Below are positions 2,391 to 27,834 of a stretch of 32,229 nucleotides of DNA, piece by piece. Origin of the DNA: a virus; the IMG/VR virus record IMGVR_UViG_3300025652_000292, positions 1 to 32,229 of that record; one strand, 5' to 3'. The stretch's first letter is position 1. Every line of letters begins with the position of its first letter. A program made the position numbers and the translations under genes. The notes beneath the pieces were generated by a model. The model searched no databases and had not been told where the DNA came from. It saw only the letters and a list, made by a program, of their open reading frames with translations.

Positions 2391-3374
2391 CTAAGCAGCA
2401 TCGCGCCCAGCGTCAATTTCTTGGTAACCTGGGGACTGTGAAACTGATATAGAAGCCCACCCAGGACTTTGCCCATCGTTTATTGTATTGTAGTTTGGAT
2501 CTTGATTGGTGTCTATCTCTCCATACACCAAAGGAGCGCCCAAGTCTACACTTACAGCCAAGCCCACTGGGAATGCGGATGCGCCTAACTTTAACGTAAC
2601 ATCGCCAACCGCTACGCCAATCTCAAAGCCAACGGGCTCTACAATTGTGTTGTTGTAAACAATGACGCTGCCAATGGCAGATGTCATCGCCAGGGATCCC
2701 GCAGTCACATTGGCTTTCGCCTGGACAGAAGCAGATCCCACTGCAGAAGTTATTGCCAGGCTGCCGGCTGTCACATTTGCTTCGGCATCAACAGCTGCAG
2801 CGCCAACAGCAGAAGTAATCGCCAGGGTGCCAGCTGTCACATTTGCTTCAGCATCAACAGCTAGGGCGCCTACTGCAGAAGTTATTGCCAGGCTGCCGGC
2901 TGTCACATTTGCTTCAGCATCTACCGTTACGCTGCCAATGGCTGAGGACATAGACAGTCCAGTCACCTGGACAACTGCGCCGGCAACTACCTGGGCAGCG
3001 CCAATACCAGACGTAATCGCCAGGGATGGGGCTGTAACATTAGCAACCGCATTGACTGTTAAGCTGCCAACGCCTGAAGTAATAACGCCGGCTGAAGATA
3101 CAGCAACATCTGCTGCAGCGGTAGCGGTAACGCTGCCAACTGCCGAAGATATAGATAACCCAGTAACCTGGACGACAGCGCCAGCTACAACTTGCGGGGC
3201 ACCAACTGCCGAGGTTATTGCTGGGGAAACAGGGGTCACGTTGGCTTCTGCAACAATAGTTACACTGCCAACGGCTGAGGTGATTACACCAGCGGTCGAT
3301 AAAGTTACAGGCAGCGAAGTACCCCAGGCGCCTTCGCCCCAGGTTCCGCGACCCCAGCCGGTTAATGTGGCCAT
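2391..3374 (-). CDS. 22-residue tandem-repeat virion protein
   Basis: A 327-aa protein that starts MATLTGWGRGTWGEGAWG, a Gly/Trp-rich opening found in appendage proteins of marine phages. From about residue 30 to 270 it consists of roughly eleven tandem 22-residue units of the type ITSAVGxxxVxAEANVTxxxLA. These are visible in the DNA as a 66-bp period, with the central units nearly identical. The alternating small and hydrophobic residues predict a beta-solenoid or stacked beta shaft. The last 50 residues (DPNYNTINDGQSPGW) are not repetitive. Its ATG overlaps the stop of the 47-aa gene by one base (TAATG), and the fibre gene follows, so an appendage or fibre-attachment role is likely but inferred. 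A long open frame on the plus strand here is only the mirror of the repeat. Confidence 0.75.
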   Translation of the reverse strand: MATLTGWGRGTWGEGAWGTSLPVTLSTAGVITSAVGSVTIVAEANVTPVSPAITSAVGAPQVVAGAVVQVTGLSISSAVGSVTATAAADVAVSSAGVITSGVGSLTVNAVANVTAPSLAITSGIGAAQVVAGAVVQVTGLSMSSAIGSVTVDAEANVTAGSLAITSAVGALAVDAEANVTAGTLAITSAVGAAAVDAEANVTAGSLAITSAVGSASVQAKANVTAGSLAMTSAIGSVIVYNNTIVEPVGFEIGVAVGDVTLKLGASAFPVGLAVSVDLGAPLVYGEIDTNQDPNYNTINDGQSPGWASISVSQSPGYQEIDAGRDAA

Positions 3375-3548: not shown

Positions 3549-4340
3549 CTATGCAGCTTCGCCGATACCTTGGAATTTGCGGTCCAGGATACGGCGTACT
3601 TTAGAGTAAGTGATATCAGCAGCGCAAGCGTGGAGCGATGCGACCTGCTTAGCAATCTTCCTGGGGCCCAGCCCTCGGTCCCGCAGTTTGTAAATCGTCA
3701 TCAACACATCCTGCTCTTCGGGGATCTCCTCCAGGCGAGTCCTGGTCTTATTGCCGTGCTTCTCCTGGACCTTAGCGTAGCCATAAGGAGCGCTGCCACC
3801 AATGAAGTATCCGCGAGAGGCCCAATCTACCTTGCCATCACCAAATCGGTCCTTGATGGTGGAGTGTTCTATCTCAGCAACCGCTGAAAGCACCATAAGC
3901 ATGATCTGGTTAGCCATTTCGTTCATATCAAACTTAGATCTCAGGCCCTTCTGGCCTTCTGGCTTAGGATATACGATGGGCACCTCGCCAAACTGCTCAC
4001 AAAAGAACAATGTAATGCCAATATCTTGCAATACGGGGATAATTGACAGCAAATCGGCGCTGGACCTGGATAATCGGTCCAATCGAGTGCAAACAATGAC
4101 ATCATGACGATCAATGATGTCGGTGAGCTCTTTACTGCCTGGTCGATCCAGGATTGGCCTGGTGCCGGACACGCCGTCATCTACCAGGAACTCTGTAACC
4201 TCTCGGTTATACTTCTCTTTAACAAAGTCAGCAATCTGCTGCTGCTGAACCTCTAAGGACACGCCAGATCGTACCTGCTCTTTAGTCGATACCCTGACAT
4301 AGCCATAAATATTGTTGATTTGCTTGAGCGGATTAATCAT
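3549..4340 (-). CDS. Serine recombinase (resolvase/invertase family)
   Basis: A 263-aa serine recombinase. The catalytic domain occupies residues 10-150: YVRVS with nucleophile Ser18 and Arg16, the VDDGVSG strand near 53-59, and the TRLDRLSRS motif at 85-93. A long helix and a C-terminal helix-turn-helix (RGLGPRKIAKQV) near 227-250 follow. The size matches small resolvases and invertases rather than large serine integrases of 450-600 aa. Its ATG overlaps the upstream gene's stop (ATGA). The first fibre-operon genes follow, so possible roles are tail-fibre switching, resolution of genome multimers, or integration. No crossover-site pair was recognised by eye, so the substrate is unknown. Confidence 0.92.
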   Translation of the reverse strand: MINPLKQINNIYGYVRVSTKEQVRSGVSLEVQQQQIADFVKEKYNREVTEFLVDDGVSGTRPILDRPGSKELTDIIDRHDVIVCTRLDRLSRSSADLLSIIPVLQDIGITLFFCEQFGEVPIVYPKPEGQKGLRSKFDMNEMANQIMLMVLSAVAEIEHSTIKDRFGDGKVDWASRGYFIGGSAPYGYAKVQEKHGNKTRTRLEEIPEEQDVLMTIYKLRDRGLGPRKIAKQVASLHACAADITYSKVRRILDRKFQGIGEAA

Positions 4341-6009: not shown

Positions 6010-6200
6010 GTGCAGATAGATACGAGCTGGAAGAGTTCTTCCAGGCAGAGAGCGGCAGCGGGTACGTTGTTACCAGGCGCTGCGGTGAAGCAAGTTATGA
6101 GGAGATAATAGCCAGGCGTGCCAAGATCCTGGATAAGCAAAAGAAGCCTCACGGGATCTATTACATTAGCCCCCAGGGCGAGCGCAGCCGAGTTAAGTAG
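6006..6200 (+). CDS. 64-aa hypothetical early protein
   Basis: Last gene of the P2 operon, with AAGGAGAAG just before the ATG. The product MSADRYELEEFFQAESGSGY onward is charged, and the C-terminal part HGIYYISPQGE looks like a short beta hairpin. No family recognised. It ends 11 bp before the next promoter. Confidence 0.6.
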   Translation: MSADRYELEEFFQAESGSGYVVTRRCGEASYEEIIARRAKILDKQKKPHGIYYISPQGERSRVK

Positions 6201-6211
6201 GCTGCAATTAG

Positions 6212-6240
6212 TTGTACAACGACACGATAAGTGTTACAAT
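6212..6240 (+). promoter_or_regulatory. Sigma70-like promoter with embedded operator (P3, plus)
   Basis: TTGTAC at 6212-6217, a 17-base spacer AACGACACGATAAGTGT, and TACAAT at 6235-6240. The spacer block matches P1, P2 and P4. It places the HD hydrolase and the 77-aa gene in the same regulon as the early operons. Confidence 0.78.
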
Positions 6241-6267
6241 AAACTGTATTGAGAAGGGAGGTGTGTT

Positions 6268-6708
6268 GTGGTTGCTGGGTTTCAAAAGGCTTTAGAGGTT
6301 GCCGTTGCCGAGTATGAGGAGCTGTTCGATAAGAACGGCTTGCCTATCATATTCCACGCGATGGCCGTAGCCAAACCCATGATGGAGAAGTATGGCGAGA
6401 CGCATGCTATTGTTGGATTGTTGCATGACGCTTACGAGAACGTCTGGAATACTGAGCAAGATTTCATCGAGTGCGGTGAGATCTTTGGTCCTGAAATAGA
6501 GGCTGCGGTTCGAGCGGTCACTAAGGCCCCTGGTGAGGATTACTTGGAAGAATACATCCCCAGGTGTTTTGCCAACCCGATTGCAAAAGCAGTTAAGGTG
6601 TGCGACCTCAAAAACAACTACAATGGTCTTGACAGTATACCCAAGCCTGCCGATAGAAAAAGATTGGCAGCCAAGTATGCAGCAGCATTGCTCATGGCAG
6701 GAGAATAA
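6268..6708 (+). CDS. SpoT-like small alarmone hydrolase (HD domain)
   Basis: A 146-aa HD-superfamily metal hydrolase resembling the ppGpp hydrolase domain of SpoT/MESH1. It starts with GTG at 6268, six bases after AAGGGAGG. The metal and catalytic pattern is visible in order: His30 (FHAMAVA), His53-Asp54 (GLLHDAYENV), Glu57, then Asp113 and Asn117 (CDLKNNY). The Asp...Asn spacing of four is the same as in the RelSeq hydrolase (D144/N148). The Glu-Asp pair after HD is Glu57-Asn58 here, one departure from the canonical residues. The family would cleave 3'-pyrophosphate from (p)ppGpp-type nucleotides. It has its own early promoter and faces the RelA/SpoT-like gene at 6876-8144, so it may lower host alarmones or neutralise that protein's product. 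It could instead act on other nucleotides. Confidence 0.8.
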   Translation: MVAGFQKALEVAVAEYEELFDKNGLPIIFHAMAVAKPMMEKYGETHAIVGLLHDAYENVWNTEQDFIECGEIFGPEIEAAVRAVTKAPGEDYLEEYIPRCFANPIAKAVKVCDLKNNYNGLDSIPKPADRKRLAAKYAAALLMAGE

Positions 6709-6709
6709 T

Positions 6710-6943
6710 ATGGAAAAGATAGAGAGTTATTGGACCTGGGAAGAAGCGCCAGGCGTTTTAGTTGACTACGGTGACGATAATTTTGGTGGATTTCACCTAG
6801 CCCAGGGCTCTGACGAATGGGAAAAACAGACCGAGTGGGATGTCGTTCAGTGGTTTAAAGAGGGTAAAAAGCTATCTAAGCCCAGTTTTGAAATGAAATA
6901 CGGAAAGATCGGGGACCAGCTTCCACAACTCCCCCTTTCATAA
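6710..6943 (+). CDS. 77-aa acidic aromatic hypothetical protein
   Basis: The start is the ATG at 6710 with GGAGAA upstream; a longer open frame reaching back to 6533 lies inside the hydrolase gene and is not needed. The product begins MEKIESYWTWEEAPGVLVDY and is rich in Trp, Asp and Glu, as in some nucleic-acid mimics, but no family is recognised. Its 3' end overlaps the convergent 422-aa gene by 68 bp, which is unusual in this window. Confidence 0.6.
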   Translation: MEKIESYWTWEEAPGVLVDYGDDNFGGFHLAQGSDEWEKQTEWDVVQWFKEGKKLSKPSFEMKYGKIGDQLPQLPLS

Positions 6944-8144
6944 ACTTATCCACAAGCTGCTCCACAATAGCAGGATCCGCTGCATCAAAAGCAGCACCAA
7001 ACAGGCGCCTCTGCTCAGCAAGCGCCTTATTGTATAGCTTCAGCTTAGTACCAGGTATCTCGTGGTTGTACCGGCCTTCTAGCTTCCTGGAGTAATCATA
7101 CCAGCGGTGAGCTCCCTGCTCCCCCGCATCAAACATTTCAGGCGTCTTAATCTGGATCTCAGCAACAATCTTCTTGCCGGTAGCCGGATCATCAACCAGG
7201 ACATTCATCTTCCGGTCAAAGTAACCAGATTCAGGTATGCGCTGCCAACCTCGGTCGATAGTCGTGTACATCTGGCCTATTTGACTCACAGCCTCTTCTG
7301 CCTGGTCTGCAGTATCTATGTAAATCGTTGTTCTTACGCCATCGGTGAAGTCTGCCGGCGCCAGGCCCTTTCTCTCAACCTTGGTGGCTATGCTTTTCGG
7401 CGTCTTGACCTCAACATCAAACTGGCTGCCATCTTTTAGGTTGATAAACTTATCAGCTTTCTTGCCACCAACTGACTTAGCCACTGAGTCAATGTTAGCC
7501 TGGAATGAAGGGTTCACTGTGTTAGCTCGCTGGACCATGGCTTCAACCGAATTAAGATCACCTTGCTGCCGTTTAAGTGCAGCCTCAATCTCTCTCACTC
7601 GCTCAATACCCAGCTCCTGGAATACAGGGGTGGTTCTGATCGGACCATCTACCTTGGTGCCCTGCTCAATCGCTGCAACTAACCTGGCGGCATCAATGGC
7701 TTCAACACCATCACCTACCCTGGCAACATCCTGGGGCAGATTATCAATTCCACCGGTCAGCTTCATGGCTTTTCTAAGTGCGCCTGGTGCCTTCAACGCG
7801 GTCCCCAGCGTAGCTCCGAGCGGCGGAATCACGTAGGTCGCATCACCCAGGACGCCTAACGCCTGCAGCGCAGGATCTAGGATGTTGCCCTGGCGAATGT
7901 TCTCCAGGATAGAAGGATTGTTTTCGGCATCAAATATATCGGTGAGACCTGTATCAGACGATGGCATTCCAGGCATATTACCGGTAGCATCAACAGTCGC
8001 TGCCCCAGGAAGTAGTTGCGCTGCAAAATACGCAGCCTGCTCCTCAGTCAGAAAAGGATCACTCTTCTCTTCGGGATCGCGCATCATATCACTGACGCTG
8101 CCCCCAAGGTTAAAAGCGAATATGTCGATATCGTCTCTATTCAC
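6876..8144 (-). CDS. Virion-like protein with C-terminal RelA/SpoT-like nucleotidyltransferase domain
   Basis: A 422-aa protein with a GTG start at 8144. Residues 1-130 (PFLTEEQAAYFAAQLLPGAA, then NILDPALQALGVLGD) resemble the N-termini of phage ejection or large virion proteins. Residues 220-355 look like the RelA/SpoT synthetase fold: KTPKSIATKVERK at 247-259 (compare the synthetase R.K...SI..K loop), DFTDGVR at 265-271 (as in DITDLVR of toxin-linked relatives; the Asp is one position further from Arg than in canonical synthetases), GYFDRK at 307-312, EIQIKTPEM at 329-337 with putative metal ligand Glu329, and GAHRWYD at 344-350. It could transfer pyrophosphate to a nucleotide or to tRNA. 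It is the last gene of the minus operon from 9653 and faces the HD hydrolase. The fold is fairly sure; activity and virion location are inferred. Confidence 0.72.
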   Translation of the reverse strand: MNRDDIDIFAFNLGGSVSDMMRDPEEKSDPFLTEEQAAYFAAQLLPGAATVDATGNMPGMPSSDTGLTDIFDAENNPSILENIRQGNILDPALQALGVLGDATYVIPPLGATLGTALKAPGALRKAMKLTGGIDNLPQDVARVGDGVEAIDAARLVAAIEQGTKVDGPIRTTPVFQELGIERVREIEAALKRQQGDLNSVEAMVQRANTVNPSFQANIDSVAKSVGGKKADKFINLKDGSQFDVEVKTPKSIATKVERKGLAPADFTDGVRTTIYIDTADQAEEAVSQIGQMYTTIDRGWQRIPESGYFDRKMNVLVDDPATGKKIVAEIQIKTPEMFDAGEQGAHRWYDYSRKLEGRYNHEIPGTKLKLYNKALAEQRRLFGAAFDAADPAIVEQLVDKFMKGGVVEAGPRSFRISFQNWA

Positions 8145-9050: not shown

Positions 9051-9235
9051 TATTTTTTATAGCCTCCCCCCGCCTTCTTATATTCAGAAGCCAGCAATTG
9101 AGCCTTCCTGGCAGACCATTGACCCGCCTTTCCGCCCTTAGTACCAGCCTTGATACGATTGAACAGGTTTTTACGCATTGTGGGCTTAGTATAATTGCCC
9201 GAAGCATTCACCGTCGATTTTTTTTTGACCGCCAT
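9050..9235 (-). CDS. 61-aa Lys/Gly-rich basic protein
   Basis: A small basic protein ending GGKAGQWSARKAQLLASEYK followed by KAGGGYKK. The GKxGQWSARKAQ motif recurs in phage small proteins next to the kind of gene that follows here. AAGGAGGG precedes the ATG. A run of nine A's encodes the Lys residues at the N-terminus, a possible slippage point. The first 50 bases overlap the nuclease gene in another frame. Role unknown; binding to packaged DNA is a reasonable guess. Confidence 0.68.
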   Translation of the reverse strand: MAVKKKSTVNASGNYTKPTMRKNLFNRIKAGTKGGKAGQWSARKAQLLASEYKKAGGGYKK

Positions 9236-9653
9236 AACTACCCTCCTTAAAGTATTTACCCAATAGTATAAACCATTGGTCCAAAGTCATTACCACGGTT
9301 TGCGCGTTGTCGCGCTCGAAACCAGGGTTGATCGCGTGAATCGGCACGCAGACCCTTATGGCTTTGTTGTTAAACTTATAGATAAGGACGGGAGTTCTGT
9401 CACCGCACGCCTCAAGCACCTGGTCCCACCAGGCGGGGGCATACCACCAGCCACTCTTATACGCCTTGGCCTCAATAGCATGACCAGGTATCTCAATGTC
9501 ACACATGCCTGCAGTCTGATATTGATCGAGGTTGCGCTTACAGGTGAGGTCCTGGCCATTACCATCGACTACCCCGTTATCCGCGAAAAAAGTATTTAGG
9601 CGCTTGACCAAATCACGCTCGAAGGCAGCTCCTTTGTTGCGTGAATCAGCCAT
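9186..9653 (-). CDS. PD-(D/E)XK nuclease, Hjc-like Holliday-junction resolvase
   Basis: A 155-aa protein with the signature of Hjc-type resolvases: SRNKGAAFERDLVKRLN with catalytic Glu12, then KRNLDQYQTAGMCDIEI with Asp52, and EAK at 61-63 as the ExK motif. A WWxQ-like segment (WWDQVLEACGDRTPVLIYK) and a final strand follow. Such enzymes cut branched DNA before packaging. The start at 9653 has AAGGAAATGAT upstream. It heads the minus operon containing the RelA/SpoT-like gene and lies beside the gene-free stretch, without an obvious consensus promoter. Confidence 0.8.
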   Translation of the reverse strand: MADSRNKGAAFERDLVKRLNTFFADNGVVDGNGQDLTCKRNLDQYQTAGMCDIEIPGHAIEAKAYKSGWWYAPAWWDQVLEACGDRTPVLIYKFNNKAIRVCVPIHAINPGFERDNAQTVVMTLDQWFILLGKYFKEGSYGGQKKIDGECFGQLY

Positions 9654-17325: not shown

Positions 17326-17341
17326 AGCCCCTTCGGGGGCT
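17326..17341. terminator. UUCG-loop bidirectional terminator hairpin
   Basis: AGCCCC-TTCG-GGGGCT, a very stable tetraloop hairpin between the convergent 193-aa and 2OG-oxygenase genes. The flanking T content is modest on both strands, so it may act partly as an RNA-stabilising 3' end. Confidence 0.65.
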
Positions 17342-18077
17342 ATTCGATCTCTTCGTAAATGTGTTTATTCCTAGACTTATTATGTAACCAGAATACCAGG
17401 AGGTATCTGTCGCCACTCTCCACTGCCAAGCCCCTGTGGAGATTGGTGAAGGATGGGAATATAAGGGCATGGCCAGAGGGCAAGGGCTTGAGCGTTCCAT
17501 GATTATGGAATTCAGTACCGCCACCGACATACCCTCCAGTGTTCAGCGGAACAACCACCGAGATATCTGCAGACTCATCATGGTGCCAGGCACCTTTCTG
17601 CTTATCCTTGGGGTTGTAGTTTGCTATCTGCACCGAGGAGATATCAAAGCAATCTCTCTGATACAGGCTTAGGAATATAGGGTTGAGGACAGTCTGCACC
17701 ACGAACCACATACGGCTATACAGCTCAGGACAGTGGTCCCGCAGCACAATCTCTGGGATTTGCCTGAGCTCATCCTCATCCTCATTCGGTTTAAATGCAA
17801 CGTGATCTTCCATGAGTTTGATCTCTTCGACCATCATCTTGCACCATTGCCGCCTAAACAAAGGCACGGTGTAAATGTCAGGAAAGACCCGCTTGCACAT
17901 CTTATCTATGGGGGTTTTATGAAGATCCTCACGCCCCTCATTAGCTCTGTATTTGGCTATGGCGGGGATAGATTCCTGGACGGCATCATACAGGGCATGA
18001 TTGATAGGCCAGTTCGACTGCATTGAAAGAAGATAATTCTTTATTTGGTAAGTCATAGTTTGCATATTCTTACACAA
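17340..18077 (-). CDS. 2-oxoglutarate/Fe(II)-dependent oxygenase
   Basis: A 245-aa protein; the start may be ATG 18077 or the internal ATG at 18056, with no strong ribosome site to choose between them. The C-terminal half is a double-stranded beta-helix oxygenase of the prolyl/lysyl-hydroxylase type: WHHDES with iron ligands His165 and Asp167, the GGGTEFHNHG strand at 185-194, FPSFTNLHRG with third ligand His214, and Arg224 ten residues on for 2-oxoglutarate. The N-terminal half is helical and unrecognised. Phage relatives hydroxylate protein side chains or modify DNA bases; the substrate cannot be told here. It is a single minus gene ending in the shared hairpin. Confidence 0.85.
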   Translation of the reverse strand: MCKNMQTMTYQIKNYLLSMQSNWPINHALYDAVQESIPAIAKYRANEGREDLHKTPIDKMCKRVFPDIYTVPLFRRQWCKMMVEEIKLMEDHVAFKPNEDEDELRQIPEIVLRDHCPELYSRMWFVVQTVLNPIFLSLYQRDCFDISSVQIANYNPKDKQKGAWHHDESADISVVVPLNTGGYVGGGTEFHNHGTLKPLPSGHALIFPSFTNLHRGLAVESGDRYLLVFWLHNKSRNKHIYEEIE

Positions 18078-18302: not shown

Positions 18303-18547
18303 ATCTGTTCAATAAACCAGGGGCTTCTCGCTCAGTACCGCAAAGCTACAAGCCAGTGCTTGAGGCGTCAGAAGTTATCGACTTGTTTGCCAGGCTAACA
18401 CTGCACCAGCAAGCAGCAATGATGCGACTGTTAAGCCGCAACATAGTGATCGACCTGGGAGACGACAATCGTTATATGGGATATGAGTTTGACTACAGCG
18501 TAGATGGCGCAGTGATTTCTGTTACGCCGTCTATTGATGAAGACTAA
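18299..18547 (+). CDS. 82-aa hypothetical protein
   Basis: GTG start overlapping the previous stop (GTGA). The middle FARLTLHQQAAMMRLLSRNI is helical and the end (YEFDYSVDGAVISVTPSIDE) beta-like and acidic. No family recognised. Its stop overlaps that of the convergent 846-aa virion gene by three bases. Confidence 0.6.
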   Translation: MNLFNKPGASRSVPQSYKPVLEASEVIDLFARLTLHQQAAMMRLLSRNIVIDLGDDNRYMGYEFDYSVDGAVISVTPSIDED

Positions 18548-21084
18548 ACCAGCCCTGCGATACCCGATCTATTAGCTTGCATCCGCGAGGCTAATTCCCT
18601 GTCTGCGTCATTTGGTAGGATGGTTGGCGACATAGCTGACTGGAAAGAACTAGGTGCGCTAACTCCACCGGTAGAAGGCAGTGGCTCAAACATAGAACCA
18701 TCTGTCGAACCGACCTGCGGAATACTCATACTGTTAAGGCTCGCCATGAGCTCTTCCCTATTTGGCAGCAGCTTATCTGCCGTGCTCTTAGGAACAACCT
18801 GGCGGAATGCTGATTCATTGTTCTCTGGTATAGCTTTGGGACCCTGTTGAGACTCAGAGCTCTCCCAATCCATTGGCTCGATAGCATCCTGGCTCAAGCC
18901 CTGGATAACACCCTTAACCTCATCACGGATATCGGGATTAACTTCTGAGATCTGAACCAGGCGGCGGATATGCTGCCCAAAAGAGTTGGGCTTGTATGCC
19001 GCTATCTCTACACCTTTAGATAGCCACTTCACAAAGTCCTTGTTGGTCATCAACTTGGCGGAAGCATAGGGGGCAATCAACCCGCCTAACCCGTACTCAA
19101 ATCCGTCACCACCCAGTAACTTTCCTGCCTCAGCAGCCAGGGGACCAAAGGTTCCCATTGCTCCTAACAGCCTGGCAGTGCCAGAGGGGTTAGCCATTTG
19201 AGCTGCAGTCTTACCTACACGGTCAATTGTAAACACCAGGTCATCAAGAGCTGGTGCCAGGTCGGCATATTCTGTTCCGCCAAACAAAGCCTCTTTCGCT
19301 TCTTTGGAAAGGTTGTTCCAGTTGGTAACAAATCTGTTTGGGGAGAAGCCGGCCTCAGCCATCGCCTCGGCGCCAGACTTGGCGGCCTGCTCACCTAACT
19401 CAGAAGCACCCGCAGCTGATCCGGTAGGCATGCCCATTCTGCCCAGCATGTAGCCGGATAGAACATTAAACTCATCAGGCTCAAATTGACGACGAAGTTT
19501 TTCAAGACGCTCGGCGCCCTCTTTAGAACCGCTAAGCACATAGCGTAAAGCTCCCGTGGCCTCAGTCTCTCCTCGCTTGATAACATCATCAACAAAGGCA
19601 ATGTCTCCGCCCTTACGCATATTCTGTTTAACAAACGCATTGGCGGCCTTATATTTATTTAAAATAGCGTTGGACGCACGCTTGCCAGCCTCACCATCAA
19701 ACATGTCTATCTGAGCGTTCCCTGCGGACTTTACAAGGTTATCCAGGTCTGCGGTGACATATCCTATCAACTCTTTTACTTTGGCCTCAGAACGGCTTAG
19801 AGCGCCTTGTGACTCGGCCTTTCTAACCGTGCTCATCAGGCTGCTTCTAAATGCTTTCAGCTGGTTATAATCGAGCACACCATCAGCAGCATCCTGGAGC
19901 AATCGACCGGCCTGCTCTAATGCAGGATTCAAGTCGGGGGCACCAGTTGCAGTCTTAGATTGTGCCAGGTACTTATCAACAAACTTCTTTGTGGCGCCAG
20001 CATCTGATCTAACGGTGTCGCCGATCAACTCGCCAACTTCGTCATACATTGCTTTTACTTGTTCATCGTAACGAGCCCTGGATGCCTGGGCTGCTCCCAT
20101 TACTTGGTCGGCTGCTTCTGAGGTTGTTCTTACACCACCATACTTGCCAGCTAAACCGGCGGTGGCTTCATCGAGCTCTACCAGGGTTTTCTCCGCGTTC
20201 TCCTTCATGATACGAACAGACGGGGGAGCCGCTGCTAGATACTGCTCAAATAAATTAACCAGGGGATTACCGCTAACCTGGCCGGCAGTGGGGTTACTAA
20301 CGCCGGCCTTAGACATTCTGTCAAGAGCTTCTTTTGCTGAGGTATCTAAGGCGTTTATTGAATACCTGATTGGGGCGCCAACCGCAAACTTAACGCCGTT
20401 ATAAATCTTAGATACGATTGGACCAGCCGCAGCATTGACTGCCGCAGTGGTAGAGAAGTCACCTAGCCTTTCCACGCCTGTCCTGTTGTCTTCGGTTTCC
20501 CCGAAGAAATCCAGAATACCAATATACGCTTCTCTTGCTGCAGCGCTGCCAAGTCCTTCCCCAGCTACAAAGCCAGCGGTTGCTGCAGGGATGGCTCCTA
20601 TCACTGTGGGAGAGGCAAGAGTTCCAGCGGCTGCTGCACCACCAATACCACCACCAATACCACCAATAGTCTCAGCTATCTCTGGACCTACATCAGCAAA
20701 GTCGCCCAGGGTAGGAATGGGCATCCCGAACAATCTGACATCCTCATCAAAAAGCGTGAGCGTCCCAGTCTCTGGATTAGTAAATACAAAGTTACCTCGG
20801 CCAAACCTGGAGGCGCCATTCTTTGGATCAAGGACCTCAACAGGCATAGCGTCAGGATAAAACTTTTTAATGGTAGCCAGCTTATCGTCAACTGATTGAG
20901 CTGCAGCCACCTGGGCTCTAATTCCGGCAGATGCGCCAGACTTGGTGTCTATTGAGTTTAAAATATCTGCCTGAGCCAGAGACATAAGTTGATCGTCAGA
21001 ATAGCTTCCTAAGCTAGGAATCTCTGGAAAAACCATAGAGAGCAGTTGGTCGTCACTTAAAGTTTCTAATGCTTTTTCACTCAC
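18544..21084 (-). CDS. Large internal virion / DNA-ejection protein
   Basis: An 846-aa protein with a GTG start coupled to the upstream stop (TAGTG). It opens with two short acidic repeats (LETLSDDQLLSMVFPEI, GSYSDDQLMSLAQ). A long Gly/Ala-rich hydrophobic segment follows at about 138-185 (GGIGGGIGGAAAAGTLASPT), which could cross or insert into a membrane. Several hundred residues of charged helices come next, then a low-complexity tail ending near SPTILPNDADRELASRM. Size, position at the end of the virion operon and composition match podovirus ejection proteins that form the conduit across the envelope. No transglycosylase motif was found. Confidence 0.75.
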   Translation of the reverse strand: MSEKALETLSDDQLLSMVFPEIPSLGSYSDDQLMSLAQADILNSIDTKSGASAGIRAQVAAAQSVDDKLATIKKFYPDAMPVEVLDPKNGASRFGRGNFVFTNPETGTLTLFDEDVRLFGMPIPTLGDFADVGPEIAETIGGIGGGIGGAAAAGTLASPTVIGAIPAATAGFVAGEGLGSAAAREAYIGILDFFGETEDNRTGVERLGDFSTTAAVNAAAGPIVSKIYNGVKFAVGAPIRYSINALDTSAKEALDRMSKAGVSNPTAGQVSGNPLVNLFEQYLAAAPPSVRIMKENAEKTLVELDEATAGLAGKYGGVRTTSEAADQVMGAAQASRARYDEQVKAMYDEVGELIGDTVRSDAGATKKFVDKYLAQSKTATGAPDLNPALEQAGRLLQDAADGVLDYNQLKAFRSSLMSTVRKAESQGALSRSEAKVKELIGYVTADLDNLVKSAGNAQIDMFDGEAGKRASNAILNKYKAANAFVKQNMRKGGDIAFVDDVIKRGETEATGALRYVLSGSKEGAERLEKLRRQFEPDEFNVLSGYMLGRMGMPTGSAAGASELGEQAAKSGAEAMAEAGFSPNRFVTNWNNLSKEAKEALFGGTEYADLAPALDDLVFTIDRVGKTAAQMANPSGTARLLGAMGTFGPLAAEAGKLLGGDGFEYGLGGLIAPYASAKLMTNKDFVKWLSKGVEIAAYKPNSFGQHIRRLVQISEVNPDIRDEVKGVIQGLSQDAIEPMDWESSESQQGPKAIPENNESAFRQVVPKSTADKLLPNREELMASLNSMSIPQVGSTDGSMFEPLPSTGGVSAPSSFQSAMSPTILPNDADRELASRMQANRSGIAGLV

Positions 21085-21743: not shown

Positions 21744-22496
21744 TTAGTCCTTGGTGAAGTATATCATCTGACCATCTGCGCCAGGACGTTGAAATATTGG
21801 AGCACCTGAGCTGTGGTATCTCCCTGTAAATGTAGCATCTGGAAACTCTGCTGGAGCACTGGTGTCTTGCGGCTGAGTAAATATGTCTTCGACAGTAATC
21901 CCAGGAACCTGCACAACCCTGGCACCCTCTTCTGTTTGGACCGTCTGCATTCTAGGCTTCTGAACAAACTTGAGCGCGAGCTTATATTCTGGCGTGTTCT
22001 TCAACGATGGATTTTTTTCTGCTTCCAACAAAATGTTAAACATCTGAGCCTCTAGGCTCTTGCCAGCAAAGACGCCTCCCGTCTCTTTCAGTACCTGAAG
22101 ATCATACTTAAACTTTGCGTCAAGCATTTTCTCCTGCATAGCTTTTGCATCTTGCCTTCTTTGCTCTACATCCTGATAAGCCATCTGCATGAGCTTGGAC
22201 CGCATTTCGTCAGCTCTTTGCTGGCGCTTCTGGGCTGCCTCGCTGTAAAGATTAAATCCTGCTGCCAGGCCATAACCAATAGATGAGGGTCTACCACTTG
22301 CTGCTTGCTCAACCAAGCCTCGGCTAAGATCTGAAGCCATGCCATACAAGCCGCGCTTCCTGGTGGTAGGCATAAGAAAAGAAAGCTCCTGGGCTTTTTT
22401 ATTTATTGCCTCTAGGTCGATTCCAGATTGCGGCTGATTCTGCATTGCCTGCAGCTGTTTGAAATATTCAAGGGTTGGATCCGTTGTCTCCGCCAT
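21744..22496 (-). CDS. 250-aa internal virion protein
   Basis: Helical and Gln/Met-rich in the first 150 residues (AAQKRQQRADEMRSKLMQMA), with a GYGLAAGFNLYSEAA segment near 74-88 that looks amphipathic. The C-terminal part is beta-like (TFTGRYHSSGAPIFQRPG). Its start overlaps the stop of the 1113-aa gene (TAATG). Position between two large internal proteins suggests an ejectosome component; no named domain recognised. Confidence 0.68.
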   Translation of the reverse strand: MAETTDPTLEYFKQLQAMQNQPQSGIDLEAINKKAQELSFLMPTTRKRGLYGMASDLSRGLVEQAASGRPSSIGYGLAAGFNLYSEAAQKRQQRADEMRSKLMQMAYQDVEQRRQDAKAMQEKMLDAKFKYDLQVLKETGGVFAGKSLEAQMFNILLEAEKNPSLKNTPEYKLALKFVQKPRMQTVQTEEGARVVQVPGITVEDIFTQPQDTSAPAEFPDATFTGRYHSSGAPIFQRPGADGQMIYFTKD

Positions 22497-25400
22497 TATG
22501 CACCCCCTTGATTCATGTAGGTGCCGGCAGCACCTAACGCTCCTAGTCCAGTAGCAAGACCAGCCTGCAACGCACTAGGCGGCGGAGTATAAGTTGTGCC
22601 AATAGTTGTTTGGCCGCCAGCCCCTACACCCATATTCACAAACGGCTGCAGAGCGTTGTACTGATTAAGCGGAGCCATCTGAGCCTGCTGCATTGCTGCA
22701 CGCTGGGCATCAAACATCTGCTGCTGATTACCCTGCTGCATTCCGCCGTACTGCATTAGATTCTGCATCTGCTGCTGGCCTGCTGCCTGCTGTGCATTGC
22801 CAAGACCCTGGAGGAAACCACCATAGCCTTGCTGCGCTGCAAGTTGCTGCTGACCGATCTGCCCCTGAAGTCCGCCCATGGCGCCATAGCCCTGCGCGAT
22901 AGTCGCTGCATTCTGCGCTGCATTGTTGCCCATCTGAGTCCTGGCATCCTGCATGCTTTGGCCTGCGCCCATCATTGTCTGACCAAGCTGAGTGCCGGCG
23001 CCATACATTTGATTAGCCACGTTACCCATAGTTTGACCATACTGCTGCTGAGCACCCATTCTTTGTTGAGCGCTTTGTCCCAGGCTAGAAGCCAGATTCT
23101 GCTGGTTACCCAACACCTGGCCGGCAGTGCCCTGGATAAGGTTGCCGTATCCTTGACCTGCACCCAATCTGCTTTGAGCTGCCTGGGCTTGTTGCTGTGA
23201 TCTTTGCTGCTGCGAACCAAGTCTTTGTTGAGCACTTGATCCAAGCTGGGCACCATACTGTTGCTGAGCGCCTAGACGCTGTTGAGCCTGGCTACCCATT
23301 TGATTAGCCAGCTGCCCAGATACATCCATCTGCTGCTGACCGATTCTACCAATGCCTTCACCTTCTGCCCTTTCCGCCGCAAGTCTTTGTTGCCCAGCAG
23401 ATCCAAGGGTTGAGGCCAGGTTTTGCCTAGCGCCCAGGGTTGATTGAGCTGCGCCCATCTGCTGAGAGGTCAGTGCCTGGTTGGCACCAAATCGTGTTTG
23501 TGAGATATCTCCAGCTCGTCTAGCCAGGTCAGATTGTGCTGCAGCCTTTTGCGCTGCGGTCTGCCCCATTTGAGAAGCCAGTGTTTGATCTGCGCCAAAC
23601 TGTGTTTGTGATACGTCACCAGTACGCCTAGCAATGTCTGCCTGAAATGCAGCACGTTGCGCGGCAGTATTTCCTAACTGAGAAGAAAGAGCCTGGTCTG
23701 CGCCAAACTGTGTTTGTGATATATCGCCTGCCCTTCTTGCCAGGTCAGACTCAGCTGCACCTAACTGTGAAGCAGAAGAACCAAGCTGAGAAGCAACGGT
23801 CTGCCCTGCGCCAAATCTTTGCGAACCGGCAGCAGCTAAACGATCTGCAATGCTTTGATTAGCAGCCAGGTCGCCAGAAGCCTCCTGGGACATTCTGCCA
23901 GATAGTGATTGGTCTGCAGTAAGCCTGCTCGCCGCACCCTGACTCAATGTATTTGCAGCACCCTGCTGGGCACTCAAGTCCTGACCGCCAAGAGATGCAA
24001 GCCCTTCTGCTGCGCCACGCTGAGCTCCCTGCTGTCGAGCAAACTCACTCATCGCAGTGTTTTGAGCGTTCTGGAATCCCTGAGCTCTTAGACCGCCAAC
24101 CTCTTTGGCCAATCCTCTACCCATTGCTTCCGCTCGCTCTGCAGCAGTCAACCTAGCCCTAGAGCCAAAAGCAGACTCACCGCCAGTCTGTATATCTCTA
24201 GCGGTCTGAGCCATGTCGGACTGAGCCAACCCTTTAGTGGCGTCCTGGATCATTTGGTTGACTACACTATCTTCATACGGGTTCATATACTGAGAAGTAG
24301 TTGACGGATCAAATGCCCCTACAGAACCACGCAGTAAATCCCTGGACTCATTTAGCCCAGCAGAGAAATCATCAACCGCACCAATCCCACGCTGTTCTGC
24401 GTCAGACAGTCTGTTGCCGAAACGGTCAACAGCGGCACCAAGCCTTGCTGTAGCTTCACCTTGTCGGTTGGTAAATCGGTCAACAGCTCCACGCTCCTGG
24501 CCTAATGCCTGGTTGAGCTCTTGATTTAATTTTGCTTCTGCACCCTGCAGAGATGTGGTGGCCTGACCCAAGCCTTGGCCAAGACGATCTACGGCACCTT
24601 CTTGCCTGGCTAAGGAGCCAGATAAGCCCTCGCCTAAACCTTCAATCCCCTGCCTAAGTGCTGCAGTTGACTGACCTAAACCAGAATCTAAAGTACGACC
24701 AGCCTGCTCTTGCCTGGACAAAGATTGTGTTAATCCAGCCCCTAAGCCTTGAACACCTTCTCTAAGCGCTGCAGTTGAAGAGTCCAGTCCTGATCCCAGG
24801 CCAGCGACAGCTCGACGCTGTTCTGCCAAAGATCCACCTAAACCTCCACCAAGCTCATTTACTGATCGAGATAAACCCTGAGTTGCTTGCCCTACTTGGC
24901 CAGAGAATTGTCCTTCTGCGCCTCTAGCTAAACCTTCTATTCCACCCAGGTCTCGCGCAAACCGATCACCAGATTGTCGAAGCATCGCACCCTGCTGCCC
25001 AAGTGCCTGACGTTGCTGACTTGCACCACCGGCCAGCTCCCTGGCAGCGCCAGCAAGTCCTCGATCAAAACCGGCTGTAGATCTTCTAGCCAAATCATCA
25101 ATATTAGATAAGTCGCGTCCAAATCTATTGGCAGCTAACTGACCAGTCCGCTCAGATCCAGCAAGATCTCGCTTAAACCTGTTAAGGTCATTAGCTGCAA
25201 ACCGATCCACATCACCCATTCGGTCGTCAAATGCAGAGGCTGCACCCCTGGATAAATTCTCTACGCCCTGGGCACGTTGGTCGAATTGCTGCTGAGTTTG
25301 AAGCGCTTGTTGCTCTTGAGCAGACAAGTCTCTCCGTAATTCATTTGTTGCTCGCTGCGCTTCGCTCTGGTTTCTGCGAATGCCGCCTAATGCGTCACCC

Positions 25401-25837
25401 AAACCACGCTGGGCTTGAAACTCAGATATGCCTGCGCCACGCTGCAACTCTTGGAGTGACTGCTGCTGAGAAGCAAGCTGAGCCTGCTGCCCTTCACCCA
25501 GGGCACCAAGGCCCTGCTGATACGCATCTTGAGAAGCCTGGAGAAAAGGCTCTTGAGAACCAACGGCCTCTCTTGCCATTTCAAAGGCTGCTTGTTGGTC
25601 TGGGCTAAACCCAGCAATCTCCTGGGGAGTAACCAGGGGACGACCCTGCTCATCAAAGAAACTGCGCTCGGCAGCTTGCATCGCTCCAGGTATAAAACCG
25701 CCCTGGCCATCTAAGCCATAAAGCATTTGCTGGACAATAGGGTCCATGCTGGTTTCAGTCTTTTGAATACCAGCTACATAAGGAGAAGCGGCGCCACCTT
25801 CTTGAAACCTTTTAATTTGGGCGGGGGACATAATCAT
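22496..25837 (-). CDS. Giant Gln/Ala/Gly-rich repeat protein of the virion
   Basis: A 1113-aa protein of very low complexity. Three repeat zones are visible. Residues about 300-420 have 36-residue units (LSRQEQAGRTLDSGLGQSTA then ALRQGIEGLGEGL). Residues about 650-790 have another 36-residue unit (ARRTGDVSQTQFGADQTL then ASQMGQTAAQKAA), with near-identical copies in the DNA at 108 bp. Residues about 850-1010 have 18-residue units (LGQSAQQRMGAQQQYGQT). Eighteen residues are five helical turns, so long straight helices or ribbons are predicted. A central non-repetitive part (STTSQYMNPYEDSVVNQMIQ) is likely globular. Its place after the LysM protein suggests an internal or ejected scaffold; tape-measure-like use cannot be excluded. 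Confidence 0.72.
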   Translation of the reverse strand: MIMSPAQIKRFQEGGAASPYVAGIQKTETSMDPIVQQMLYGLDGQGGFIPGAMQAAERSFFDEQGRPLVTPQEIAGFSPDQQAAFEMAREAVGSQEPFLQASQDAYQQGLGALGEGQQAQLASQQQSLQELQRGAGISEFQAQRGLGDALGGIRRNQSEAQRATNELRRDLSAQEQQALQTQQQFDQRAQGVENLSRGAASAFDDRMGDVDRFAANDLNRFKRDLAGSERTGQLAANRFGRDLSNIDDLARRSTAGFDRGLAGAARELAGGASQQRQALGQQGAMLRQSGDRFARDLGGIEGLARGAEGQFSGQVGQATQGLSRSVNELGGGLGGSLAEQRRAVAGLGSGLDSSTAALREGVQGLGAGLTQSLSRQEQAGRTLDSGLGQSTAALRQGIEGLGEGLSGSLARQEGAVDRLGQGLGQATTSLQGAEAKLNQELNQALGQERGAVDRFTNRQGEATARLGAAVDRFGNRLSDAEQRGIGAVDDFSAGLNESRDLLRGSVGAFDPSTTSQYMNPYEDSVVNQMIQDATKGLAQSDMAQTARDIQTGGESAFGSRARLTAAERAEAMGRGLAKEVGGLRAQGFQNAQNTAMSEFARQQGAQRGAAEGLASLGGQDLSAQQGAANTLSQGAASRLTADQSLSGRMSQEASGDLAANQSIADRLAAAGSQRFGAGQTVASQLGSSASQLGAAESDLARRAGDISQTQFGADQALSSQLGNTAAQRAAFQADIARRTGDVSQTQFGADQTLASQMGQTAAQKAAAQSDLARRAGDISQTRFGANQALTSQQMGAAQSTLGARQNLASTLGSAGQQRLAAERAEGEGIGRIGQQQMDVSGQLANQMGSQAQQRLGAQQQYGAQLGSSAQQRLGSQQQRSQQQAQAAQSRLGAGQGYGNLIQGTAGQVLGNQQNLASSLGQSAQQRMGAQQQYGQTMGNVANQMYGAGTQLGQTMMGAGQSMQDARTQMGNNAAQNAATIAQGYGAMGGLQGQIGQQQLAAQQGYGGFLQGLGNAQQAAGQQQMQNLMQYGGMQQGNQQQMFDAQRAAMQQAQMAPLNQYNALQPFVNMGVGAGGQTTIGTTYTPPPSALQAGLATGLGALGAAGTYMNQGGA

Positions 25838-27834
25838 GCTGGCTCTCCTGCAAAGTCTCTGAACAGCTTCATCATGTCGTACATTAGCTTTGTGCCTTTC
25901 TCCCTGGACTCTTCACCCAGGGGTTGCAATGTAATGATGCCGCCGTCTTTTTTCATCTCGAAAGCTCCAGCACCTCTTACTGCCTGGCCCGTCATGACGA
26001 ACTCGCCATCGGATAGCATGGCAGGAATGTCATCACTTACCTCAGTGCCTGGTCCTTCGATATCGCCAACCATTCTTTGAAACTCTTCCATAGAGACGTT
26101 GCCGCCATCAGCATAAGACATGACAGGTCCGCCGTATCTCATTCCTTCCGCTTCAGTTGGTGGTGGGGTTGGTCTTCCACCGCTCAAGGTCGGGAAGGTA
26201 TTAGCAGGCAGCAAGCCAAACTCAACAGGGTTAGGGGCTTCCCCTCCTGTACGTCTTGCAATCTCTGCTTCAATATTGTATCGGCCAGCCGCGTTCATAG
26301 AGGTCAACGGCGTCTGTGCTACACCTTTAGAGTTCTTGGCTTCATCATAAGCGAGCTTACCCAGCAAGCCGGCCAGGCCAAGCGCTGCAATGTCTTTGCC
26401 TCCAAAGCCACCGCCACCGCTACCACCGCCAGTGATAGACTTGATAAAGTCAGGTGTTGGATTGCTCCCACCAAATCCTAAGCTGTCGCCTATGTTCTTT
26501 ATGTAGTCTGGGGTGTCAAACGCCTCATCAATAAAGCTGCCATTGGTGAATGGGTTCAAACCAGACAGTACACTGGAGGCCGCTCCTGCAGCTGCACCAG
26601 TGCCGGCCATCATCTGGCCACCTGGTACGTTTAGCATTTGGCCAGCGATAATCATGTTGGGGTCAGTTATGTGCGGGTTATTTGCCATCATTTCTTCAAC
26701 AGATACGCCGTACTGCTGGGCTATCTGAGAGAGCGTATCCCCAGATTGAATCTGATATTGCTCTGGCACTCCTGCCATTCCAGCACCGCCAAGACCCGCT
26801 GCAGTGGTAAGACCTCTTCCAACCATTCCGGTAGGAGCTCCAGGCAGCTGACCAGGATTGAGCACGCTACCTGTTGCAGCTACACCAGGCAGCGCTGCCT
26901 CTCCTGAGTAAGTTGCTGTTTTTAGCAATCCAGGAATACCCTTGTTACCTGCAGCACCACCGAAGATGGTGTCCATGGGGCTAGAGACAAGGTTACCAAT
27001 ACCGCTCTTTAACGCAGCACCAGTGCCGGTTAAACCGGCGCCTATCCCGCTGAAAAAGTTACCGCCACCAGCTTTAGTGATATTAGAGATGTTAGATCCA
27101 ATACTTCCGCCAGTAGCAGCGGGGCCAGCTACAGTCAGCAAAGCCAGGGGATTGGCTCTGCCTTTTGCAACATCGTATACAGTGAATGCTTTGTTAGCCA
27201 AAGCAGCGATAGGCTGCCATGGACCAGGTATAAATTGAGCTACCTTGGCAAGAGGTTTGACAACCTTCTTAACAACCTTCTTAACGCTTTTTGCAATCTT
27301 CTTAAAGAAGCCGAATTCTTCCAGCCCAGTAATTGGGTTTAATGAGGCGATGCCCAAACCAACTACAGCCTGGTGTGGGTCAATATCTAATTCTTCAAAT
27401 CTTTGCTGAACGACACGCTCAAACTCTGGATCCTCAAATGCTTCAGGCGGAAGGACAACCTCACCTGGTCGGAGGTGAGCCAGGGCAGTATCATCGCCAC
27501 GACCTTCTGCTGCCAGGGCAATAGCCTGCTCAGCCATGGGCGCGTTAGCCCCAACCATAGCGGCTTCAGCCAGGTGCTCATATGTTCTTTTTTCTGTGGG
27601 ATCGTCTGTGGCCTGGGCTTGCATCATCATCTCTTCGATGGCTGCAGCAATATCGGCATTCGGGTCTTGAGTTACGGCCTGCTCTACAACGGCCTCTTGA
27701 GCTTGGCCCATCAAGGCCATTTGATCCTGGGAAGGTGCTGCGCCGCCATCTCTCATCATGACAACTGGCCCTCCCATGTTCATTGGTTGGGCTTCAAGAC
27801 TTGCAAGCAGTTGATCTTCTAATTTCATATTCAT
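25834..27834 (-). CDS. LysM-domain virion protein
   Basis: A 666-aa protein. Residues 359-404 are a LysM peptidoglycan-binding domain (YQIQSGDTLSQIAQQYGVSV, then ITDPNMIIAGQMLNVP). Before it lie an acidic helical N-region with LRPGEVVLPPEAFEDPE near 121-137, a Lys-rich helix (KKIAKSVKKVVKKVVKPLAK) and Gly/Ala-rich segments. Near the C-terminus is DDIPAMLSDGEFVMTGQAVR, a motif recurrent in phage virion proteins but without assigned function. It probably binds the cell wall during DNA entry. No lysozyme or amidase active site was found, so it is not a complete endolysin. Coupled to neighbours by ATGA overlaps. Confidence 0.8.
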   Translation of the reverse strand: MNMKLEDQLLASLEAQPMNMGGPVVMMRDGGAAPSQDQMALMGQAQEAVVEQAVTQDPNADIAAAIEEMMMQAQATDDPTEKRTYEHLAEAAMVGANAPMAEQAIALAAEGRGDDTALAHLRPGEVVLPPEAFEDPEFERVVQQRFEELDIDPHQAVVGLGIASLNPITGLEEFGFFKKIAKSVKKVVKKVVKPLAKVAQFIPGPWQPIAALANKAFTVYDVAKGRANPLALLTVAGPAATGGSIGSNISNITKAGGGNFFSGIGAGLTGTGAALKSGIGNLVSSPMDTIFGGAAGNKGIPGLLKTATYSGEAALPGVAATGSVLNPGQLPGAPTGMVGRGLTTAAGLGGAGMAGVPEQYQIQSGDTLSQIAQQYGVSVEEMMANNPHITDPNMIIAGQMLNVPGGQMMAGTGAAAGAASSVLSGLNPFTNGSFIDEAFDTPDYIKNIGDSLGFGGSNPTPDFIKSITGGGSGGGGFGGKDIAALGLAGLLGKLAYDEAKNSKGVAQTPLTSMNAAGRYNIEAEIARRTGGEAPNPVEFGLLPANTFPTLSGGRPTPPPTEAEGMRYGGPVMSYADGGNVSMEEFQRMVGDIEGPGTEVSDDIPAMLSDGEFVMTGQAVRGAGAFEMKKDGGIITLQPLGEESREKGTKLMYDMMKLFRDFAGEPA

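Follow-up and report, generated by a model that had tools for sequence, protein, structure and literature searches.

A phage effector gene with a RelA/SpoT-like synthetase domain and two facing genes, candidate antidotes, that are exchanged with it

Why would a phage carry, facing each other, a gene that resembles an alarmone synthetase and a gene that resembles an alarmone hydrolase? The window, by which we mean the whole 32,229-nucleotide (nt) stretch of IMG/VR virus record IMGVR_UViG_3300025652_000292, holds such an arrangement, and the original prediction took it for an effector/antidote pair. We find that the synthetase-like domain forms the C-terminal part of a 422-amino-acid (aa) effector, that a 77-aa gene not listed in that prediction is its more constant partner, and that related phages acquire or lose the synthetase domain jointly with the genes that face it. 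Our preferred reading, to which we give a probability of about 65%, is that the effector is a modular, polymorphic-toxin-like phage protein with an Apk2-like warhead, and that the facing genes encode antidotes exchanged jointly with it. The argument turns on the following features.

6876..8144, minus strand: effector gene, 422 aa, GTG start (open reading frame, ORF; Pfam RelA_SpoT; relatives at the same locus)
7089..7409, minus strand: RelA/SpoT-type synthetase domain, residues 246-352 (PF04607)
7683..8144, minus strand: N-terminal part common to relatives with other C-terminal domains (protein identity and DNA-similarity break)
6710..6943, plus strand: 77-aa gene, candidate direct immunity protein (association with synthetase loci; purifying selection)
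6876..6943, no strand assigned: antisense overlap of the 3' ends of the effector and 77-aa genes, 68 nt (coordinates)
6268..6708, plus strand: HD hydrolase gene, 146 aa, SpoT/Aph1-like, candidate enzymatic immunity protein (PHROG 990; tblastn; 7smg)
6202..7683, no strand assigned: exchanged block with the synthetase part of the effector, the 77-aa gene and the HD gene (DNA-similarity breaks versus L012)

Phages whose flanks are 97-99% identical and whose effector cassettes differ amount to a natural experiment, in which delivery, self-protection and warhead choice become testable. Compared with a phage carrying a zeta variant of the locus (L012), DNA similarity to the window ends at 7683 and is back at 6202; compared with L025, whose replacement protein has a weak ART-PolyVal match below the cut-off, it ends at 7678 and is back at 6194. 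Protein identity is 87% over effector residues 1-151 in L012 and L013. A further pair, L058 (synthetase and 77-aa gene) and L059 (zeta kinase, lacking the 77-aa gene), has flanks that are 99.1%, 96.6% and 99.5% identical. In each of the three comparisons the synthetase domain is replaced, twice by a zeta kinase and once by the weakly matching ART-PolyVal protein, and the facing genes are gone too.

The same association is seen across loci that were gathered by way of a neighboring gene.

9186..9653, minus strand: PDDEXK endonuclease gene, locus anchor (Pfam PDDEXK_15)

The best 80 of 405 relatives of this endonuclease gave 80 anchor loci, of which 36 were usable, having a complete effector and at least 1 kb beyond it; the other 44 were dropped for want of these. 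The 77-aa gene is present at 8/8 and the HD gene at 7/8 of the anchor loci with a synthetase, and both are absent from all 28 loci without one in the stretches covered. The Fisher values for these contrasts, 1e-6 and 3e-8, are overstated, as several loci are close relatives (e.g., L044, L045, and L046). Synthetase and HD genes do occur together in related phages, the point that the original prediction proposed to survey.

Which of the two facing genes is the main partner? A scan with the synthetase domain gave 57 loci, 53 of them testable once four (L006, L011, L041, and L173) in which the contig ends inside the synthetase gene had been dropped. The 77-aa gene was recognized at 46 of the 53 (hidden Markov model, E<1e-3) and the HD gene at 11, a count that is a lower bound because four testable loci (L010, L039, L156, and L157) have less than 1 kb of flank. 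On these figures we rejected the HD gene as the main partner of the effector. In the reverse direction, a scan seeded with the 77-aa protein found 26 loci, 24 of which have a convergent synthetase gene; at the other two (L132 and L146) the contigs stop within 150 nt. In an early locus set the 77-aa profile matched every synthetase locus with enough contig, including L055, L057, and L058, which have flank and lack the HD gene, and it matched no locus other than synthetase loci. The effector/antidote relation is supported because of this co-occurrence and the joint exchange; the original prediction of a pair is supported in part, with the HD gene optional and the 77-aa gene the steadier companion.

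The 77-aa gene starts one base past the HD stop codon, and both genes follow purine-rich stretches that resemble ribosome-binding sites (GGGAGG at 6257-6262 before the HD gene; GGAG, of AGGAG type, at 6700-6703 before the 77-aa gene). Promoter-like matches near 6213-6240 were not used, the region giving 11 against 5.7 expected. The extent of overlap between the small gene and the effector varies, from a few bases up to full nesting. Among the 46 loci, the tails overlap in 28, the gene is nested antisense within the effector ORF in 15, it is adjacent in one, and it lies 1.35 kb away in two, so that antisense overlap of some kind is found in 43. The wholly nested cases are L178, L180, L181, L184-L188, L190, L192, L195, L196, L198, L170, and L177.

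Could the small ORF be a mere antisense shadow of the effector? We rejected this for the window group. Of the 234 nt of the gene there, 166 fall beyond the effector ORF, and they show purifying selection: over the first 52 codons, the ones outside that ORF, the proportion of nonsynonymous differences (pN) is 0.05-0.31 and that of synonymous differences (pS) 0.58-0.82 across six pairs of four relatives. A profile built without nested members also matches the nested genes of L141, L142, L143, and L148, which again speaks against a shadow. In ten nested cases that were compared, pN/pS does not separate the two frames, and both look equally constrained. Nothing in Pfam, PHROGs, NCBIfam or PADLOC matches the family convincingly, a PDB sequence search with it returned nothing below E 0.07, and no relatives of the 77-aa protein were found in the phage collection searched. 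If the protein is an inhibitor, it would be a compact new one, and the antisense overlap would act as a physical lock between toxin and antidote.

The effector ORF lies where the original prediction placed it, and all five of its RelA/SpoT-type motifs are there: KTPKSI..K at residues 247-255, DFTDGVR at 265-271, GYFDRK at 307-312, EIQIKT at 329-334, and GAHRWY at 344-349. PF04607 passes narrowly on the 422-aa protein (27.5 bits against a cut-off of 27) and is the sole Pfam domain above cut-off; a whole-record search places it at 7089-7409 with 30.7 bits and E 7.8e-9. Across 50 examined records, it is found in 17 at E<=0.001 and in 12 above the cut-off. An alignment with 10 divergent relatives shows no change at residues D268, R271, G307, R311, E329, H346, and R353, and D268 and E329 are thus kept in 10/10. 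A PDB sequence search with a profile from window-family effector rows alone gave nothing at E<=0.1; when two MuF-toxin rows were included in the profile, 8vx3, an exported synthetase, was matched at 3.7e-13. AlphaFold gives a weak model (mean predicted local distance difference test, pLDDT, 46), with a moderate core at residues 191-290 (block means 67-82). Each of the 13 Foldseek PDB matches at E<=0.001 is either an alarmone synthetase or CapRel, a tRNA pyrophosphokinase, but the TM-scores are low and the VIA Z for 8vx3 (8.3) is tied with that for DNA polymerase mu (8.2). The structural check suggested in the original prediction is therefore compatible with a synthetase fold and no proof of one. 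The specificity motifs are mixed, with RTT, KMN, and IK where PMC12226406 gives RYT, GxN, and YH for the (p)ppApp type, and for that reason we do not call the product.

The HD gene, too, is as the original prediction described it, with H30, H53-D54, E57, D113, and N117 all present in the 146-aa protein. It matches PHROG 990, "metal-dependent phosphohydrolase," at E 4.4e-23, and its best PDB match is 7smg, "(p)ppApp hydrolase," at E 6.3e-11 (searched with a profile of six sequences from the window family, of which three are near-identical). The Pfam HD_4 match stays below its cut-off (21.5 of 27.2 bits), and an HD_4 whole-record search of 50 records found just 3 HD genes and missed the window-type ones. 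H30, H53, D54, K110, D113, and N117 are invariant in 7/7 aligned HD proteins; these are the HD metal-ligand and KxxDxxxN positions.

Is the HD gene part of the system at all? It might be an unrelated phage nucleotide phosphohydrolase that stands beside the effector by chance. By tblastn, HD relatives occur in 62 phage records, including Mannheimia, Pasteurella, and pneumococcal phages, and of four such records that were opened, two (Aeromonas Asswx_1 and Tunturi_4) have no MuF or synthetase gene annotated within 3 kb; its absence from most of the testable synthetase loci also fits chance. Against such a coincidence, which we hold to be improbable, stand the complete absence of the gene from the 28 sister loci without a synthetase, its loss along with the synthetase when the window is set against L012 and L025, and its three distinct placements beside synthetase genes: facing, as in the window; 2 kb beyond on the other strand (L040 and L155); and upstream (L170).

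The two other opened records show the order MuF-domain gene (by Pfam), ~70-aa gene, HD gene. This matches the layout described for Apk2-IapK-Aph1 loci, in which a MuF (p)ppApp-synthetase toxin is accompanied by a binding inhibitor and a hydrolase in prophages of Mannheimia, Pasteurella, and pneumococcal host species (PMC12226406). Apk2/IapK/Aph1 is the closest model for the window trio. Both have a C-terminal RelA/SpoT-like synthetase beside a gene of ~70-77 aa and a linked, homologous Aph1-like HD hydrolase gene. They differ in several respects. Apk2 carries a MuF domain, whereas the window protein has no PF04233 match at E<=1, with the same library detecting PF04233 in two phage MuF proteins; the Apk2 partner genes follow in one direction, whereas those of the window are convergent, with antisense overlap; IapK and the 77-aa protein are alike in size and linkage and lack detectable homology; and Apk2 has (p)ppApp-type specificity motifs in place of the mixed set seen here. 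The combination of a toxin, a binding inhibitor, and a reversing enzyme is already published (PMC12226406 and the part of PMC11699363 available to us). That part of PMC11699363 describes two cognate immunity proteins of Bxa, a MuF toxin, of which one is an enzyme and the other acts by binding, and calls the biological role of MuF toxins unknown. As far as our literature searches reach, what is new is the 77-aa family, the antisense overlap of its gene with that of the effector, and the joint exchange seen between phages that are otherwise near-identical. Among open-license papers we found none that treats this phage group or an antisense immunity gene, which is weak evidence of absence.

How, then, might the trio work? 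We infer that the effector N-terminus, common across the locus, would serve packaging or delivery, and that the C-terminus would be an Apk2-like pyrophosphokinase, toxic because pyrophosphate placed on a nucleotide or a tRNA end would stop metabolism. The 77-aa protein would bind and block the synthetase domain, and the HD protein, judging by its homology to Aph1 and to (p)ppApp hydrolases, may cleave the pyrophosphorylated product. The overlapping 3' ends would physically tie the synthetase gene to the 77-aa gene. On this scheme, the effector would be made late and carried in the virion, and the antidotes would let the producing cell survive up to lysis and, following entry, may lift the block. 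Delivery of the effector at entry and early production of the hydrolase, as in the original prediction, are possibilities that gene position suggests.

The degree of confidence must also take into account a number of findings that weigh against the antidote reading. The HD gene is missing at 42 of the 53 testable synthetase loci, and its HDxxED motif is incomplete in the window (HDAYEN, compared with HDSVED and HDVIED in two Aph1-type genes and L040). Seven of the 53 loci (L179, L182, L183, L189, L191, L193, and L194) have no recognizable 77-aa gene. The 77-aa protein shows no homology to the proteins at the IapK position by hhalign (probability <1%), and its structural model is poor (pLDDT 53), with no fold-search match at E<=0.001. 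Pfam RelA_SpoT gives no match on the two MuF proteins of the opened records, whose C-termini are 22-23% identical to the window effector. Finally, zeta and ART variants of the locus have no comparable partner gene, and an antidote is therefore not a general need at this locus.

As a separate observation, antisense ORFs inside the large effector genes of the seven loci without a recognized 77-aa gene resemble the family by eye and lack statistical support, and all were counted as misses; the nearest are L182/L183 (E 0.013; hhalign P/E 8e-6, probability 65%), and L179 gives E 0.6.

The partnerless variants bear on another possibility, that the effector is a non-lethal host-takeover enzyme altering alarmone or nucleotide pools, with the 77-aa protein as a domain-specific chaperone or packaging partner and the HD protein tuning nucleotide levels. 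Toxicity to the producer would then be no rule, as the other effectors of the locus would suggest, and the lack of homology between the 77-aa protein and known immunity proteins would be expected. We nevertheless think this unlikely, since a packaging partner would be expected for the zeta and ART effectors too and since the pairing of an HD hydrolase with a gene of ~70-77 aa repeats the Apk2 arrangement (PMC12226406).

Returning to a toxin with antidotes, is it delivered? The N-terminal part carries a short motif that recurs across the locus.

8118..8135, minus strand: DDIDIF N-terminal tag, residues 4-9 (DIDIF-type motif count at anchor loci)

A DIDIF-type motif within the first 45 residues is found in the anchor-adjacent ORF at 62 of 70 loci (10 of the 80 were dropped, with less than 1.3 kb of room); among the other ORFs (at least 100 aa), 1 of 965 has it. 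For a second motif, [FYM]xxGGx[VAI], shuffling predicts 2.4 occurrences in 65 greedily called genes of the 51-kb contig onto which the window maps, and 12 are seen: four of them fall in a gene whose PHROG matches are endolysin and tape measure, and two in the effector. Both motifs were picked after the sequences had been seen. The tag or the motif may be a recruitment signal. Behind the tag the sequences differ from protein to protein (effector genes of L044-L116). The anchor-adjacent ORFs (at least 150 aa) reach 2,156 aa, and Pfam finds ART-PolyVal in 19, RelA_SpoT in 9, DUF3990 in 8, PBECR5 in 3, and zeta toxin in 2 of 44 picked effector proteins.

With its ART-PolyVal, PBECR5, zeta, and RelA/SpoT domains combined in changing ways, the locus family resembles the polyvalent proteins known from phages and conjugative elements. 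RelA/SpoT domains are known in such proteins, according to the part of PMC5512222 available to us, and in MuF phage proteins as well (PMC5512222 and PMC5576092, the latter also available in part). The window gene is like theirs in lying on the virion-gene strand and adjoining small-terminase-like and endonuclease genes. Polyvalent proteins have at least two disparate domains, whereas Pfam finds a single enzymatic domain in the window protein, with relatives of up to 2,156 aa having ART-PolyVal and others. The available part of PMC5512222 describes no immunity genes for polyvalent proteins, in contrast to the window effector with its candidate immunity genes.

These features also bear on the idea that the genes make up a module, toxin-antitoxin-like or for abortive infection/superinfection, that works within the infected cell and is absent from virions. 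There are precedents for such action in ToxSAS modules and CapRel (PMC11782079 and PMC9712102, in the parts available), and antisense overlap could also regulate expression. Such a module is quite unlikely here in our view: the effector gene has the strand of the virion genes and terminase- and endonuclease-like neighbors, its tagged N-terminus recurs in polyvalent-type proteins that bear ART, zeta, or PBECR domains, and it does not share one operon with its partners. The alarmone synthetase toxins ToxSAS, Tas1/Apk1, and SaEAS belong to the same synthetase fold group among the structure matches, but differ from the window in their N-termini, in their gene layout, and in having other delivery or none. 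The ToxSAS module is a bicistronic operon in the accessible portion of PMC10565793, whereas the window genes are convergent, and on this point they do not qualify as a ToxSAS module.

The reading of a toxin with exchangeable antidotes can be taken a step further, although here we are tentative and put the odds somewhat below even. The locus may represent a polymorphic toxin system of environmental podovirus-like phages that is delivered in the virion and does not belong to the MuF family, with effectors recruited through a portable N-terminal DDIDIF tag, exchangeable warheads, and an antisense immunity gene of an undescribed family. As part of this delivery proposal, and just as tentatively, placing the immunity gene antisense in the 3' end of the toxin gene could make toxin and antidote hard to separate by recombination.

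Some further observations concern the effector proteins and their motifs. Tagged genes occur in tandem, two or three together (L073 and L116), with three consecutive DDIDIF-tagged genes at 4651-7192 of L116. The [FYM]xxGGx[VAI] motif, recorded for G001 (L121-L123), is concentrated at 25834-27834 (the endolysin/tape-measure-like gene), 6876-8144 (the effector), and 18544-21084 (an 846-aa gene) of the window. An ART-like insert in L009/L047 was set aside, being a by-eye reading lacking Pfam support; a GNAT-like insert in L008/L048 is weak (E 0.0055).

What kind of phage is this? In two pieces, the window aligns at 99.99-100.0% identity with a single contig of 51,015 bases. Judged by one virion protein, the closest isolates are phage DSL-LC04, Roseobacter phage CRP-901, and Pelagibacter phage HTVC027P, at 32-39% identity. 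Relatives of the effector were found neither in the phage collection searched nor in a pattern-based scan of GTDB genomes (one scan, 19 pattern matches). PHROG matches in the window mark two virion structural genes and an exonuclease VIII-like gene, and further genes are a primase/helicase, a small-terminase-like gene, and an endonuclease. The virion-gene strand carries the effector gene downstream of the small-terminase-like and endonuclease genes, and a run of small plus-strand ORFs precedes the HD gene. Elsewhere in the window, positions 22496-25837 encode a 1113-aa, Gln/Ala/Gly-rich protein with near-repeats and without a PHROG match at E<=0.1, and the gene at 17340-18077 is 2OG-Fe(II) oxygenase-like. 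A serine-recombinase-like gene at 3549-4340 (PHROG integrase/DNA invertase) adjoins a repeat-rich ORF at 2391-3374 and a long tail-fiber-like ORF at 2-2374.

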